From Segatella buccae ATCC 33574 (lineage in GTDB: Bacteria > Bacteroidota > Bacteroidia > Bacteroidales > Bacteroidaceae): 64,000 bases of DNA. Every line of letters starts with the position of its first letter. The stretch's first letter is position 1. Location of the stretch: contig NZ_GL586311.1 of NCBI RefSeq assembly GCF_000184945.1, positions 400,199 through 464,198 on the forward strand, read 5' to 3'. The notes below the pieces were generated by a model. That model was not told where the DNA came from and searched no databases. It was given only the letters and a program-made list of their open reading frames with translations. Below are positions 37,510-51,701 of the stretch, piece after piece. The position numbers and the translations under genes were made by a program.

Positions 37510-37905
37510 CATGATTTGGTGAAAGGTGTCTCCGCAAAATGCCGCGCGATGGCGAATAATATTAACAAAAACACTTCCGCCAAAACGATCCATCCAGAAC
37601 CGAAAGCCGGCTTTAGAACACCCGAAAAGCCGATCCATATTCCCATTTGGGCTCTTCGAATTTGCAAAAGAGCCACACTTGAAAGCTGAAAGGGCCACAG
37701 TTCCGCTGCAACTGTGGCCCTTTTGCAAGCCCGTTTTGGCCCTTTCAGCCCCGTTTTCGGGTCAAATTTTGTGTTCACAAAATTCAAACGACTGATTATC
37801 AGTGTTTTAAAAACGTCGCCAAATTTGCGCATTTGCGTCGGGCAGGGCGTTTGTCGAGAATATCGCAAGCAGAGAGGCCGAAAACGAACAAATAATTTAA
37901 CAATC
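37510..37905 (+). repeat. Long dispersed repeat, copy A, with central palindrome
   Basis: About 395 bp that aligns along its whole length, with scattered mismatches, to the reverse complement of 45260-45655. The centre is GGGCCACAGTT (37692-37702) and AACTGTGGCCC (37710-37720), a perfect 11-bp stem. Matching landmarks in the second copy are AATAATATTAACAAAA near 37555, GAAAGCCGGC near 37610 and ATATCGCAAGCAGAGAGGC near 37860. Open frames exist in it but run in several frames at once, so I do not call them genes. It fills the 538-bp gap between the HIT gene and manC. Confidence 0.85.
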
Positions 37906-44347: not shown

Positions 44348-45010
44348 ATGATTAAAGTAGAAAAACTCAGCAAGTCGTTTCGCACGGAAGAAGTCGAGAC
44401 GATAGCACTCAACAACGTATCATTTGAAGTGGCCGACGGTGAATTTGTGGCCATCATGGGCCCCTCAGGTTGCGGCAAGTCCACACTACTCAACATCCTC
44501 GGACTGCTTGACAATCCCACGGGCGGACAATACTTCTTGGACGGTCGTGAGGTGTCGGGGCTGCAAGAGAAAGACCGCACCGACGTGCGCAAGGGCGAAA
44601 TCGGCTTTGTCTTCCAAAGTTTCAACCTCATCGACGAACTCAACGTCGAGGAAAACATCGAATTGCCCCTCACCTATCTCACCATCCCCAAGGCCGAACG
44701 CCGGCAAAAGGTGCAGGCCATCATGCGGCGCATGGCCATCAGCCACCGCGCCAAGCACTTCCCCCACCAGCTCTCGGGCGGTCAGCAGCAGCGCGTGGCC
44801 ATCGCCCGTGCGGTGGTGTTCGGTCCCAAAATGATTTTGGCCGACGAGCCCACCGGTAATCTCGACTCCAAGAACGGTGCCGAAGTGATGCACCTGCTCA
44901 CCGAACTCAACCAAGAGGGCACCACCATCGTCATGGTGACCCACAGCGAGCATGACGCCTCCATCGCCCACCGCACCATCCGCCTCTTCGACGGACAAAT
45001 CGTGGAATAA
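44348..45010 (+). CDS. ABC transporter ATP-binding protein (MacB/LolD type)
   Basis: A 220-aa ATPase powering the two upstream permeases. Seen: Walker A GPSGCGKST (about 38-46), Q-loop VFQSFNLID, signature LSGGQQQRVAIARA, Walker B MILADEP, and the switch His in VMVTHSEHD. The subfamily (short, with FNLIDELNVEENIELPL) is that of LolD/MacB-type exporters. It is 110 bp after the second permease. The complete set is therefore permease, permease, ATPase in one direction. Confidence 0.93.
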   Translation: MIKVEKLSKSFRTEEVETIALNNVSFEVADGEFVAIMGPSGCGKSTLLNILGLLDNPTGGQYFLDGREVSGLQEKDRTDVRKGEIGFVFQSFNLIDELNVEENIELPLTYLTIPKAERRQKVQAIMRRMAISHRAKHFPHQLSGGQQQRVAIARAVVFGPKMILADEPTGNLDSKNGAEVMHLLTELNQEGTTIVMVTHSEHDASIAHRTIRLFDGQIVE

Positions 45011-45152: not shown

Positions 45153-45259
45153 ATTCAAAAATTTAAAGATACAAAAGGTCAAATATTAAGATATCCCTGC
45201 TTCCCTTTGCCTATTTACAGCCCGGCCGATGCTTGACAGGGAGACCACCGGGATAGAAT

Positions 45260-45655
45260 AATTTGTCAAACTAATTATTCGTTTTCAGCCTCTCTGCTTG
45301 CGATATTTGCAACCGACAACCACTTGGGCGCAAATAAGCGAATTTTGGCAACACTTCCAAACCGTTGACAATCAGCTGTTTGAATTTTACTGACATGAAT
45401 TTAGGTCTAAAAAGGGGCCTAAAAAGGCCCAACCGGGCTTGTAAAAGGGCCACAGTTGCAGCGCAACTGTGGCCCTTTCAACTTTCAACTGTGGCTCTTT
45501 CGCAGGTCTGGAGTGGCCGAATGGGAAAATCGGCGGGCTTTTCCGGTGGTCTAAGGCCGGCTTTCCATTCTGGCCGGAGAGTTTTTGCGGAAGCACTTTT
45601 GTTAATATTATTCACTGCGTTCCGGCATAGCATGGAGACAGTGTTCACCGATTTC
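45260..45655 (-). repeat. Long dispersed repeat, copy B, with central palindrome
   Basis: Inverted copy of the repeat at 37510-37905. Its centre is an even stronger hairpin: GGGCCACAGTTGC (45447-45459), a 3-nt loop and GCAACTGTGGCCC (45463-45475). Similarity covers the full length, including both ends (TAATTATTCGTTTTCAGCC at one side, GGTGAACACTGTCTCC at the other when read on the minus strand). Not called coding. Confidence 0.85.
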
Positions 45656-45661
45656 TCATTG

Positions 45662-45694
45662 GTAACACCTAACACCTGCCACCTAACACCCACC
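45662..45694 (+). repeat. ACACCTAACACC array related to the rsmH insert arm
   Basis: GTAACACCTAACACCTGCC followed by ACCTAACACCCACC directly after repeat copy B. The core CACCTAACACCCA is identical to that of both arms of the element inside rsmH (50754-50993). It shows the motif is not confined to rsmH. Confidence 0.6.
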
Positions 45695-45763
45695 CCCCGC
45701 CCCACCGATGGACAAAAATGATAAAAAAATAGAAACGGCACCATTATTTTAAAGAAATATTAT

Positions 45764-45808: not shown

Positions 45809-47299
45809 ATGTTTGCTAATCCGTTTACGCTTTATGCCATCATTGCCGCAGCCGCCGTGCTGCTGCTTTTCTTCGTGTTCACATCCTATGTCAAGGCACC
45901 ACCTTCCTACGCGTTCATCATCTCCGGTCTCAGCCGCGAACCGCGCGTACTCATCGGTTCCGGCGGTTTCCGCATCCCGTTTCTGGAGCGTCTCGACCGC
46001 GTTTACTTAGGACAAATCACGGTAGACATCAAAACCGAGGAGAGCGTCCCCACCAACGACTTCATCAATGTTGATGTGGATGCCGTGGCCAAGATACGCG
46101 TCACTCCGAACGCCGAAGGCACCCGGTTGGCCGCCAAGAACTTCCTCAACATGACCCCTGTCATGATTGCCGAACAGTTGCAGGATTCGTTGCAGGGCAA
46201 CATGCGTGAAATCATCGGTACGCTCGACCTCCGTTCGCTCAACACCGACCGCGACGGTTTCTCGGATCAGGTGATGCAGAAGGCGCAGCACGACATGGCC
46301 AAACTGGGCATCGAGATCATCTCGTGTAACATTCAGAACGTGACCGACAAGGAAGGGCTCATCCACGACCTCGGTGCCGACAATACGGCCAAAATCAAGA
46401 AAGACGCTTCCATCAACCGGGCCAACGCTGAACGCGACGTGAAGATACAGGTGGCTCACGCCGACAAGGATGCCAACGACGCCCGGGTGGATGCCGACAC
46501 GGCCATCGCCATGAAGAACAACGACCTGGCCTTGAAACGCGCCGACCTCAAGAAGCAGGCCGACACGGCGCAAGCCGATGCCGATGCCGCCTACGCCATC
46601 CAGCAGCAGGAGCAGCAGAAGACCATCAACATCAAGACCGTCGAGGCTGAAATTGAAAAGACCAAACGGCAGCAGATCCTCTCGCAGGAGCAAATCATCA
46701 TCAAGCAAAACGAGTTGGCAGCCGAGGTGGAGAAGAAAGCCGATGCCGACAAATATCAGGTGCAGAAGAACGCTGAAGCCGATCTCGAACAGCGCAAGCG
46801 CATAGCCGAGGCCCAGCGCTACGAGGCCGAGCAGAAGGCACAGGCACAAAATGCGGCATCCGATGCCACCCGCTACCAGTTGGAGCAAGAGGCACAGGGT
46901 ATCAAGGCCAAAGGAGAGGCTGAGGCCTACGCCATCTTGAAGCGAGGGGAAGCCGAAGCACAGGCAATGGACAAAAAGGCTGAAGCCTACAAGAAGTATA
47001 ACAACGCGGCCGTGGCGCAAATGATGATAGAGGTGCTGCCGCAAATCGTCGAAAACGTAGCCAAGCCTATCAGTGCCATCAAGGATGTCAACATCTACAG
47101 CGGCGACGGTCAGGGCATCAGTGCGATGAGCGGCAACGTGCCTGTGGCCATCAAGCAGGCCTTTGACGTGCTCAAATCGGCCACGGGTGTGGACATGGCC
47201 GACATCATGAAGGCCGGCTCCATACAGGCCAAGACCACCCGCAACATCAACCTCAATCCCGAAGCACAGGAGATTGCCGATGGCCTTAAAGACGAATAA
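45809..47299 (+). CDS. Flotillin-family membrane scaffold protein
   Basis: A 496-aa SPFH/flotillin protein that organises membrane microdomains. Seen: N-terminal membrane segment (LYAIIAAAAVLLLFFVFTSY, about 7-26); SPFH domain (about 30-200) with GGFRIPFLERLDRVYLG and NIQNVTDKEGLIHDLG; a long Ala/Lys/Glu-rich coiled coil (about 205-395) with repeated EA/AEA patterns; and a C-terminal tail beginning YNNAAVAQMMIEVLPQIVENVAKPI. Order and length fit flotillins rather than HflK/C or stomatins. No NfeD-type partner is adjacent. Single-gene unit with its own -7 box and terminator. Confidence 0.92.
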   Translation: MFANPFTLYAIIAAAAVLLLFFVFTSYVKAPPSYAFIISGLSREPRVLIGSGGFRIPFLERLDRVYLGQITVDIKTEESVPTNDFINVDVDAVAKIRVTPNAEGTRLAAKNFLNMTPVMIAEQLQDSLQGNMREIIGTLDLRSLNTDRDGFSDQVMQKAQHDMAKLGIEIISCNIQNVTDKEGLIHDLGADNTAKIKKDASINRANAERDVKIQVAHADKDANDARVDADTAIAMKNNDLALKRADLKKQADTAQADADAAYAIQQQEQQKTINIKTVEAEIEKTKRQQILSQEQIIIKQNELAAEVEKKADADKYQVQKNAEADLEQRKRIAEAQRYEAEQKAQAQNAASDATRYQLEQEAQGIKAKGEAEAYAILKRGEAEAQAMDKKAEAYKKYNNAAVAQMMIEVLPQIVENVAKPISAIKDVNIYSGDGQGISAMSGNVPVAIKQAFDVLKSATGVDMADIMKAGSIQAKTTRNINLNPEAQEIADGLKDE

Positions 47300-50101: not shown

Positions 50102-50566
50102 ATGAGATTTCTGGGAAACATCGAAGCCAAGACCGATGCCAAAGGGCGCGCCTTTTTGCCGGCCGTGTTCCGCAAGGTGCTGCAAGCATCGGGCGAGGAG
50201 CGGCTTGTGATGAGAAAAGACGTGTTTCAGACCTGTCTGGTGCTCTATCCGGAATCGGTGTGGAACGTGCAGATGGACGAGTTGCGCAACAAGCTGTCGC
50301 GCTGGAACAAGCGCGAACAGCAGATATTCCGCATGTTTGTGTCGGATGTGGAAATCCTCTCCCTCGACGGCAACGGGCGCTTTCTCATCCCCAAACGCTA
50401 CATGAAAATGGCGAACATCGACCAGAACATCAAGTTTGTGGGTGTAGACAACACCATCGAGATTTGGAGCAACGACCGTTCGGAACCTTTCATGGAGCCG
50501 GAGGAGTTCAGCAGTGCTCTGGAAGAAATCATGAACAACGACTATCAACAGGCAGAACGTGATTAA
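50102..50566 (+). CDS. mraZ: MraZ, transcriptional regulator of the division/cell-wall cluster
   Basis: A 154-aa protein made of two AbrB-like swapped-hairpin domains. Seen: MRFLGNIEAKTDAKGRAFLPAVFRKVL (first domain) and FVSDVEILSLDGNGRFLIPKRYMKMA (second domain), each with the DxKGR- or DxNGR-like motif used for DNA contact. It forms rings and represses the dcw operon by binding phased G-rich repeats, which are visible directly upstream. Its stop overlaps the rsmH GTG start by 8 nt. Complete and of normal length. Confidence 0.95.
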   Translation: MRFLGNIEAKTDAKGRAFLPAVFRKVLQASGEERLVMRKDVFQTCLVLYPESVWNVQMDELRNKLSRWNKREQQIFRMFVSDVEILSLDGNGRFLIPKRYMKMANIDQNIKFVGVDNTIEIWSNDRSEPFMEPEEFSSALEEIMNNDYQQAERD

Positions 50567-51701
50567 GACCGCAGAAACATATCATGTGCCCGTTCTCCTC
50601 AAAGAGAGTGTGGACGGACTGAACATCCGCCCCGGAGGCATCTACGTGGATGTCACTTTCGGGGGTGGCGGGCATTCCCGTGAGATTCTGTCACGCCTGA
50701 CGGGCGGGGCACACCTCTACAGTTTCGACCAAGATGCTGATGCGGAGGGGAATGTGATAGGTGATAGGTGGTGGGTGTTAGGTGATAATGAAAAGCCTAA
50801 AGGAGAAAAGGAAGAACGACCCGGCACTTCATCAGGTCCCAACACCTATCATCTATCGCCAGAAGAAGGAGACGAGGAAGAACAACACGACATTTCATCA
50901 GGTCCCAACACCTATCATCTATCGCCAGAAGAAGGAGACGAGGAAGAACAACACGACATTTCATTAACACCTAACACCCAACACCTATCACCCCAGCCCT
51001 TCACCTTCGTCCGCAGCAACTTCCGTTATTTGAAAAACTGGATGCGCTACTACGGAGTAGACCACATTGACGGACTATTGGCCGACCTGGGGGTCTCAAG
51101 CCACCATTTCGATGACGAGACAAGGGGATTTTCGTTCCGCTTCGACGCTCCGCTCGACATGCGCATGAACAAACGGGGAGGACGGACAGCTGCCGACATC
51201 GTGAACGAATATGACGAAAACAGATTGGCCGATGTGTTCTACCTCTACGGCGAACTAAAAAACTCACGCCGCATAGCCGCAGCACTTGTCAAAGCCAGAG
51301 CACAGGGACGCATAGAGACAACCCAAGACTTTGTGCAGGCCGTGGAACCGCTCTTCCGCCGCGAACGGGAGAAGAAAGACATGGCCAAGTTGTTTCAGGC
51401 CTTGCGCATAGAGGTGAACAACGAAATGACGGCACTCAAAGAAATGCTGCTGGCGGCCACGGAACTGCTCAAACCGGGAGGACGGCTGTCGGTGATAACC
51501 TATCATTCGCTCGAAGACCGCATCGTGAAGAACGTGATGAAGGCCGGCAACCCAGAAGGAAAAGTGGCACAAGACTTCTTCGGACGAATAGAGACACCAT
51601 TCAGACCGGTCAACAACAAAGTGATTGTGCCCGAAGACGACGAACAACAGCGCAACCCGAGAAGCAGGAGCGCCAAACTAAGAATTGCAGAAAAGAAATG
51701 A
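50559..51701 (+). CDS. rsmH: 16S rRNA m4C1402 methyltransferase with an 80-codon repeat insertion
   Basis: RsmH N4-methylates cytidine 1402 of 16S rRNA using SAM. Start is GTG at 50559, overlapping mraZ. Seen: HVPVLLKESVDGLNIRPGG, the SAM loop VDVTFGGGGHSREIL, acidic SFDQDADAEGN, then after the insert FTFVRSNFRYL, DGLLADLGVSSHHFDDETRGFSF, DMRMN, and GRLSVITYHSLEDRIVK with NPRSRSAKLRIAEK at the end. All core motifs are intact. Residues about 66-145 do not belong to the family: they are encoded by a palindromic block (50754-50993) with two perfect 66-bp tandem repeats rich in Glu, Asp, Ser and Pro. Without it the length would be 300 aa, as usual. The insert falls in a surface loop between an early helix and the next strand, so activity is probably kept. 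Confidence 0.9.
   Translation: MIKTAETYHVPVLLKESVDGLNIRPGGIYVDVTFGGGGHSREILSRLTGGAHLYSFDQDADAEGNVIGDRWWVLGDNEKPKGEKEERPGTSSGPNTYHLSPEEGDEEEQHDISSGPNTYHLSPEEGDEEEQHDISLTPNTQHLSPQPFTFVRSNFRYLKNWMRYYGVDHIDGLLADLGVSSHHFDDETRGFSFRFDAPLDMRMNKRGGRTAADIVNEYDENRLADVFYLYGELKNSRRIAAALVKARAQGRIETTQDFVQAVEPLFRREREKKDMAKLFQALRIEVNNEMTALKEMLLAATELLKPGGRLSVITYHSLEDRIVKNVMKAGNPEGKVAQDFFGRIETPFRPVNNKVIVPEDDEQQRNPRSRSAKLRIAEKK
50754..50993 (+). repeat. Palindromic in-frame element inside rsmH
   Basis: Left arm (50754-50790) and right arm (50962-50993) are inverted copies: the reverse complement of the left begins CATTATCACCTAACACCC and the right begins CATTAACACCTAACACCC. About 31 bp align with few mismatches. 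The block between V66 and the family sequence is 240 bp, exactly 80 codons, and stays open. The arm core CACCTAACACCCA also occurs at 45662-45694. I read it as a mobile or formerly mobile palindromic element. Confidence 0.7.
50829..50966 (+). repeat. 66-bp perfect tandem repeat (22 codons) inside the rsmH insert
   Basis: Two identical 66-bp units (50829-50894 and 50895-50960) and the first bases of a third. Each encodes a 22-residue unit of the type SSGPNTYHLSPEEGDEEE-QHDI. Each unit contains CCCAACACCTATCA, resembling the end arms, so the repeat seems to have grown from the element itself. Copy number changes keep the frame. Confidence 0.9.

Follow-up and report, generated by a model that had tools for sequence, protein, structure and literature searches.

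Heptanucleotide arrays in frame within rsmH of Segatella buccae ATCC 33574 and dispersed in its own and related genomes

The rsmH gene of Segatella buccae ATCC 33574 carries an in-frame block between two conserved parts of the protein, which raises the question of where the block came from and how the gene accommodates it. The block was analysed in a window of 64,000 nucleotides, meaning the whole stretch of DNA under study, and in the genome to which the window belongs (G000). Other sampled genomes and sampled loci are given with the prefixes G and L, respectively.

The rsmH gene encodes the 16S rRNA (cytosine1402-N4)-methyltransferase and is one open frame of 380 aa with a GTG start on the forward strand (50559-51701). 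Its surroundings follow the usual dcw order, with mraZ (50102-50566, named from its translation) before it and a short ftsL-like ORF and a penicillin-binding-protein gene after it. The family models PF01795 (8e-93) and TIGR00006 (6.9e-90) match the protein in two stretches, the better being residues 146-380, and cover both flanks of the block. A phmmer comparison with the RsmH structure 1wg8 (fold match E 1e-25) aligned residues 8-64 and 147-379 and skipped the stretch between. The aligned stretches stop at chain residue 58 of 1wg8 and restart at 67, where RsmH has residues 65-146. The in-frame block described in the initial annotation is thereby confirmed, with a single ORF, family models on both sides and absence from most relatives. 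Alignment of rsmH with sampled relatives, proposed there as a check, gave usually 8-25 residues at this place, most commonly 8, against 83 codons here. In the Segatella copri group, which supplied the nearest relatives found, DADAE is followed by the 8 residues RNVVANPN or RNVVANEN. Comparison with relatives sets the insert at codons 65-147 on the forward strand (50751-50999), that is 83 codons or 249 nt, with a net gain of 75 codons or 225 nt over the nearest sampled relatives; the 80 codons at 50754-50993 proposed initially were close. Both the 249-nt insert and the 66-nt repeat unit within it are multiples of three. Of the six frames of the block, the coding one alone is free of stops, the other five containing 4, 7, 11, 4 and 2. 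The block appears to be an in-frame insertion absent from most relatives.

An AlphaFold2 model of RsmH was built from a 64-row alignment (A2). The mean pLDDT is 76.7, with values mostly above 80 in the core and below 50 over most of residues 69-143. This low-scoring segment sits between the helix 60-67 and the strand 148-151, and the model matches the RsmH structures 1wg8 and 3tka. The model supports a disordered loop on an intact RsmH fold. The earlier proposal that residues 66-145 loop out agrees with this prediction, which puts 69-143 in an unstructured loop.

The block is bounded by a 5' arm of heptads (GGTGDTR; 50754-50787, forward strand) with the G-rich strand coding (VIGDRWWVLGD) and a 3' arm of four heptads (50965-50993, reverse strand), its inverted partner, with the C-rich strand coding (LTPNTQHLSP). 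Both arms were found by TRF and array scan, TRF giving period 7 at 50754-50787 and 50965-50992. Inverted arms of about 31 bp had been reported; they are present but imperfect and heptad-built, with 85% complementarity over 27 nt (50754-50780/50965-50991) or, in a longer version, 80% over 51 nt (50743-50793/50959-51009). The interior (50788-50964, forward strand) has no second copy in the genome by whole-genome DNA search; above noise, a search of the own genome with the whole block gave arm matches alone. A 66-nt tandem repeat, overlooked earlier, occupies 50800-50964 on the forward strand (TRF score 288; repeat family D1) with 2.5 copies of a 22-codon unit, PNTYHLSPEEGDEEEQHDISSG. Every full unit holds a partial heptad array on the reverse strand, located by array scan at 50838-50860 in the first unit and 50904-50926 in the second. 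The arms of the rsmH block are two heptad arrays facing each other around a unique interior.

Within the window the heptad pattern gave 10 matches against 0.14 expected (0 of 100 shuffles), an excess not due to chance. Searching the genome with GGTGWTAGGTGWTAGGTGWTAGG at up to 3 mismatches yielded 64 matches, and the reversed-pattern control yielded 0. A count by pattern search put the arrays of the genome at about 27, in about 20 places. The search for the arms elsewhere in the genome and inside other genes, which the initial annotation had put forward, thus found them, dxs and a GH106 gene included. The second heptad array of the window (45663-45701, reverse strand; pattern match, TRF and array scan) is flanked by an ABC-transporter ATP-binding gene (44348-45010) and an SPFH/flotillin-like gene (45809-47299), both named from their translations. 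Most places have a single arm, and inverted arms are a minority. All inverted array pairs within 250 nt are convergent (8 of 8). Four places in the window's genome have convergent inverted pairs, at genome coordinates 248407-248624, 450952-451191 (rsmH), 542369-542550 and 2834425-2834596. The interiors of such pairs are mutually different, with nothing evident in common. The dispersed unit is a G-rich heptanucleotide array, (GGTG[A/T/G]T[A/G])n, and no palindromic element with a body. The dispersed palindromic element claimed at first is not supported, given the single-copy interior, the single-armed places and the differing paired interiors. In G000 most arrays terminate at GGTGTTA, after which come ATG and then A or G, and most lie outside long ORFs, several directly after a stop codon. 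In dxs, the in-frame insert SLSPTSQHLSP occupies a loop that precedes the conserved C-terminal-domain sequence YDMRFLKPLD; this loop varies in length among relatives and is short in solved DXS. The GH106 rhamnosidase-like gene has the in-frame heptad insert NKITPLTPTTHHLPPNTPL. Rfam gave no match across five heptad loci, and the closest relative found, at about 78% DNA identity, is too distant for exact junctions or target-site duplication. Stretches of N lie close after arrays at L061 (2215-2478, array 2007-2041) and L073 (after 1997), so that part of some arrays, or an inverted partner, may be hidden.

Related genomes were scanned with a stricter heptad pattern. Of 60 sampled genomes of the genus, 10 were positive and 50 were without heptads, with 0 hits for the control; the richest was G056, 62% complete, with 130 hits. 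At the order level 6 of 294 genomes from scattered families were positive, one with 22 hits. The view that there is no Bacteroidota equivalent was too narrow, the same heptads being present in several genomes of the Prevotella group and in a few further Bacteroidales. Among the sampled genomes from other families, G326 and G276 have the most hits, and their arrays lie outside ORFs; in other distant Bacteroidales the arrays grade into heptamers of different sequence, for instance GGATTAT, GGTTATG and GGGGATT. Perfect units per array in relatives, in a search that required at least three, numbered four in 23 of 44 arrays, three in 11, five in 4 and more in 6, with the consensus GGTGDTR. The 40 relative loci are no random sample, being the places listed first for ten genomes, and an ORF of 150 codons or more was taken as a proxy for a gene call; 32 of 49 congener arrays lay inside such ORFs and 17 elsewhere. 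Family models identified the host genes as RadA, MiaA, RsgA, Lgt, threonine synthase (thrC), a GyrB/ParE-type subunit, butyrate kinase, YgiQ, DsbD and Mfd, the last with two inserts, besides a hybrid two-component protein, DPP IV, DUF4861, a SpoIIE phosphatase and others. Their functions are unrelated to one another. In RadA and butyrate kinase, the repeat peptide is skipped in alignments to solved homologues. An empty site is directly visible for rsgA in relatives at about 75-78% DNA identity, G031 having ISLSPNTQHPSPAEGWL against ISIGSGWL in G392, and no heptad-like seed was seen at the empty site in these relatives. In the DUF4861 genes of two species (L202 and L214), a heptad insert sits at apparently the same position. 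The butyrate kinase insert of G056 (L239, 1505-1573) is a higher-order tandem repeat, PNTQHPTPNTQK, comparable to the 66-nt repeat in rsmH. A glycosyltransferase gene of the distant Bacteroidales genome G284 (L295, 167-1552) contains an in-frame convergent G-rich/C-rich block of another heptamer, REKDIGHREKDIGH ... NPQPKPQTLNPKP, and the phenomenon is therefore not limited to GGTGDTR.

All 32 ORF arrays have the C-rich strand coding and none the opposite strand. This bias is trivial in part, since the G-rich strand acquires stops from GGTGATG and TTAGG. Arrays of GGTGTTG only, which are open on both strands (L207, L233, L235 and L239), likewise all have the C-rich strand coding. Position 7 of the heptad is G in 72 of 72 heptads of G056 and A in 64 of 88 of G000. 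A heptad ending in A with T at position 5 gives TAA on the C-rich strand, and one ending in G does not. Many G056 arrays are coding and G000 arrays are largely intergenic, a contrast that would fit a selection filter acting after insertion. Four runs of at least three G are present in G056-type arrays and mostly absent in G000; since the third G there is usually A, the quadruplex potential of the window's genome would be weak. Arrays outside G000 mostly end with GGTGTTGG, and the inner boundary of GGTGTTA and ATGR is not kept elsewhere.

The rsmH site itself carries heptad-built inserts in at least three other species (L117, L121 and L128). Counted from the E of DADAE, their linkers have 44 residues in L117, 39 in L121, where the insert is decayed, and 38 in L128, whose sequence is identical in G411. 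The insert peptides differ in sequence and length between species; L117 and L121 have interior residues in common and are grouped with strong support in the tree. The RsmH tree, in which the placement of the window's gene is poorly resolved, forces at least two changes; therefore at least two events, gains or losses, are needed at this site. The length of the loop varies throughout the whole group. Insertion has likely occurred repeatedly, although one old insertion followed by many losses could also account for the shared site.

We propose that dispersed (GGTGDTR)n copies were inserted in frame into rsmH, where two convergent arrays would enclose a locus-specific interior later enlarged by the 66-nt tandem duplication. 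The gene would be read through the insert, and the product would be a disordered loop between the helix 60-67 and the strand 148-151, at a position already variable in length in the family, and RsmH activity would presumably tolerate it. The same heptads would have entered dxs and the GH106 gene and, in relatives, radA, miaA, rsgA, lgt, thrC, the gyrB/parE-type gene, mfd and others. Inserts may survive where the frame is kept, stops are avoided by C-rich strand coding and the position is a loop. Spread would proceed by DNA-level events, namely template switching in replication or repair and then slippage of the G-tract heptamer, with no dedicated transposase. This explanation as a whole, an in-frame heptad-array insertion that spread as DNA and is tolerated as a disordered loop, is probably correct. 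It is based on the anatomy of the sequence, the dispersal in its own and related genomes, the empty sites, the frame, the strand bias and the predicted disorder. For the route of spread, DNA-level copying may be the likeliest single candidate, about as probable as all alternatives together; the argument comes from the exclusion of two enzyme classes and from analogy.

If every array had slipped from a chance seed in place, no movement between places would be needed. Slippage has been proposed for heptamer arrays, which are common in bacteria (PMC4692102); the gradation into other heptamers in distant Bacteroidales and the 66-nt unit, a local duplication at rsmH, point the same way, and the RsmH and DXS sites are loops of variable length anyway. 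Such purely local expansion is nevertheless unlikely in view of the dozens of places per genome occupied by one heptad family with a genome-specific flavour (72 of 72 G in G056, 64 of 88 A in G000), of the many congeners that have none and of the seedless empty rsgA sites. A non-autonomous MITE- or REP-like element with heptad ends, served by a transposase in trans, would make the rsmH palindrome the complete form and the single arrays its remnants. The convergence of every inverted pair, the inner boundary shared by most G000 arrays and the in-frame occupation of genes as in Rickettsia would fit such an element, but the paired-arm interiors have no evident common sequence, the inner boundary is not kept in other genomes and array length varies freely (2-15 units). 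A Y1/RAYT transposase was rejected, as Y1_Tnp does not track the heptads: it is absent from the heptad-bearing G032 and G056 (62% complete), G000 gives one weak hit, and several genomes in which no heptads were hit have it. We consider a MITE- or REP-like origin quite unlikely.

A telomerase-like reverse transcriptase is a further conceivable source, making heptad DNA that is captured at breaks. In its favour, the G-rich repeat resembles a telomere and varies to a limited extent at two positions, and its distribution across families is patchy. A reverse transcriptase source was rejected, PF00078 (RVT_1) being absent from 10 of 12 heptad-bearing genomes; the PF00078 search found no RVT_1 in the window's genome (99.98% complete), G028, G032, G326 or the heptad-richest G056 (62% complete). 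Templated synthesis is thus largely refuted and extremely improbable. It is also very unlikely that the block in rsmH is an ancestral feature of a clade with a function, such as that of a binding loop, and has since disappeared from most relatives. The same site is occupied in four species, L117 and L121 share interior residues in a strongly supported group, and the frame is strictly kept; against this, the peptides differ in sequence and length between species and that of L121 shows decay, disorder is predicted for the insert, and the heptad host genes are functionally unrelated.

Dispersed heptamer arrays are known from Xanthomonas and Nostoc (GGGAATC or GGGGA(C/T)T), with no known spreading mechanism (PMC4692102). 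The present arrays resemble them in consisting of a dispersed G-rich heptamer, which combines a G run and four more bases and is degenerate at fixed positions, in the modal number of four units, in the frequent convergent inverted pairs and in length variation between relatives. The consensus GGTGDTR matches neither GGGAATC nor GGGGAYT, so the heptad is a different heptamer outside these families. Also unlike the published arrays, most of those sampled in several Prevotella-group genomes are in frame within conserved genes, and in the window's genome the quadruplex potential would be weak, the third G usually being A. Arrays of TAACTGA occur in Beggiatoaceae, cyanobacteria and some Bacteroidetes, again with no mechanism found (PMC4679880). 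They are similarly dispersed, patchy over distant lineages and in some cases in reading frames on the stop-free strand; however, the heptamer is different, TAACTGA lies mostly just upstream of start codons, and its coding cases are mainly protein ends or hypothetical proteins, whereas the inserts here are mid-enzyme and in conserved proteins. Rickettsia palindromic elements (RPE) are stem-loop elements of 105-146 bp with a recognisable body (PMC2229807). They are dispersed and tolerated in frame inside conserved proteins, as the heptads also would be here in rsmH, dxs, GH106 and many genes of relatives, and to this extent the initial comparison with Rickettsia stands; the repeated element body is lacking. 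Only the heptad arrays are common to the places, the interiors being unique and the length variable, and the heptad insert is not an RPE because a repeated body is missing, the rsmH interior being single-copy. BrickBuilt of Porphyromonas gingivalis is described as a minisatellite inside a MITE (PMC4596501), and as far as that description goes it is alike in being a Bacteroidota repeat with tandem repeats and inverted ends. By anatomy we would place the heptads beside the dispersed heptamer arrays, and by effect they seem RPE-like. The open-access literature, most subscription journals lying outside it, yielded no description of in-frame heptamers mid-sequence in many conserved enzymes, and a literature search for heptad arrays in Prevotella gave nothing relevant.

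Protein-coding selfish repeats are best known from Rickettsia and Wolbachia, and here a simple heptamer would do likewise across a large, non-reduced gut genus. The affected enzymes serve DNA repair, tRNA and ribosome maturation, isoprenoid synthesis and lipoprotein processing. As heptads sit in frame in many conserved proteins, short repetitive DNA appears to be tolerated as new protein loops. The inserts provide a natural collection of sites at which conserved proteins would tolerate insertion, and a test case for the spread of simple repeats between unlinked bacterial places; in annotation they call for caution, as they can mimic new domains or assembly errors. The heptads might even be self-spreading repetitive DNA moved by an activity common to scattered Bacteroidales, which would repeatedly place short stop-free coding segments in essential enzymes and so remodel the core proteome, the invaded genes being those of genomes of the G056 type, where the heptads have lost the base that forms TAA. 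This wider proposal is doubtful.

Two other dispersed repeats were observed in the window's genome. One of about 330 nt, seen at G000:C1:684972-685323 (L059) and about 40 other places, has copies roughly 70-88% identical and adjoins some heptad arrays. Rfam gave no match to it in the loci that were searched; one copy has several partly open frames, and over 12 copies the reverse strand gives the better consensus fold. The other, of about 370 nt, lies at 37534-37905 and 45251-45628 of the window and in L063 and L071; its copies are 73-77% identical, and the two in the window differ in their open frames.
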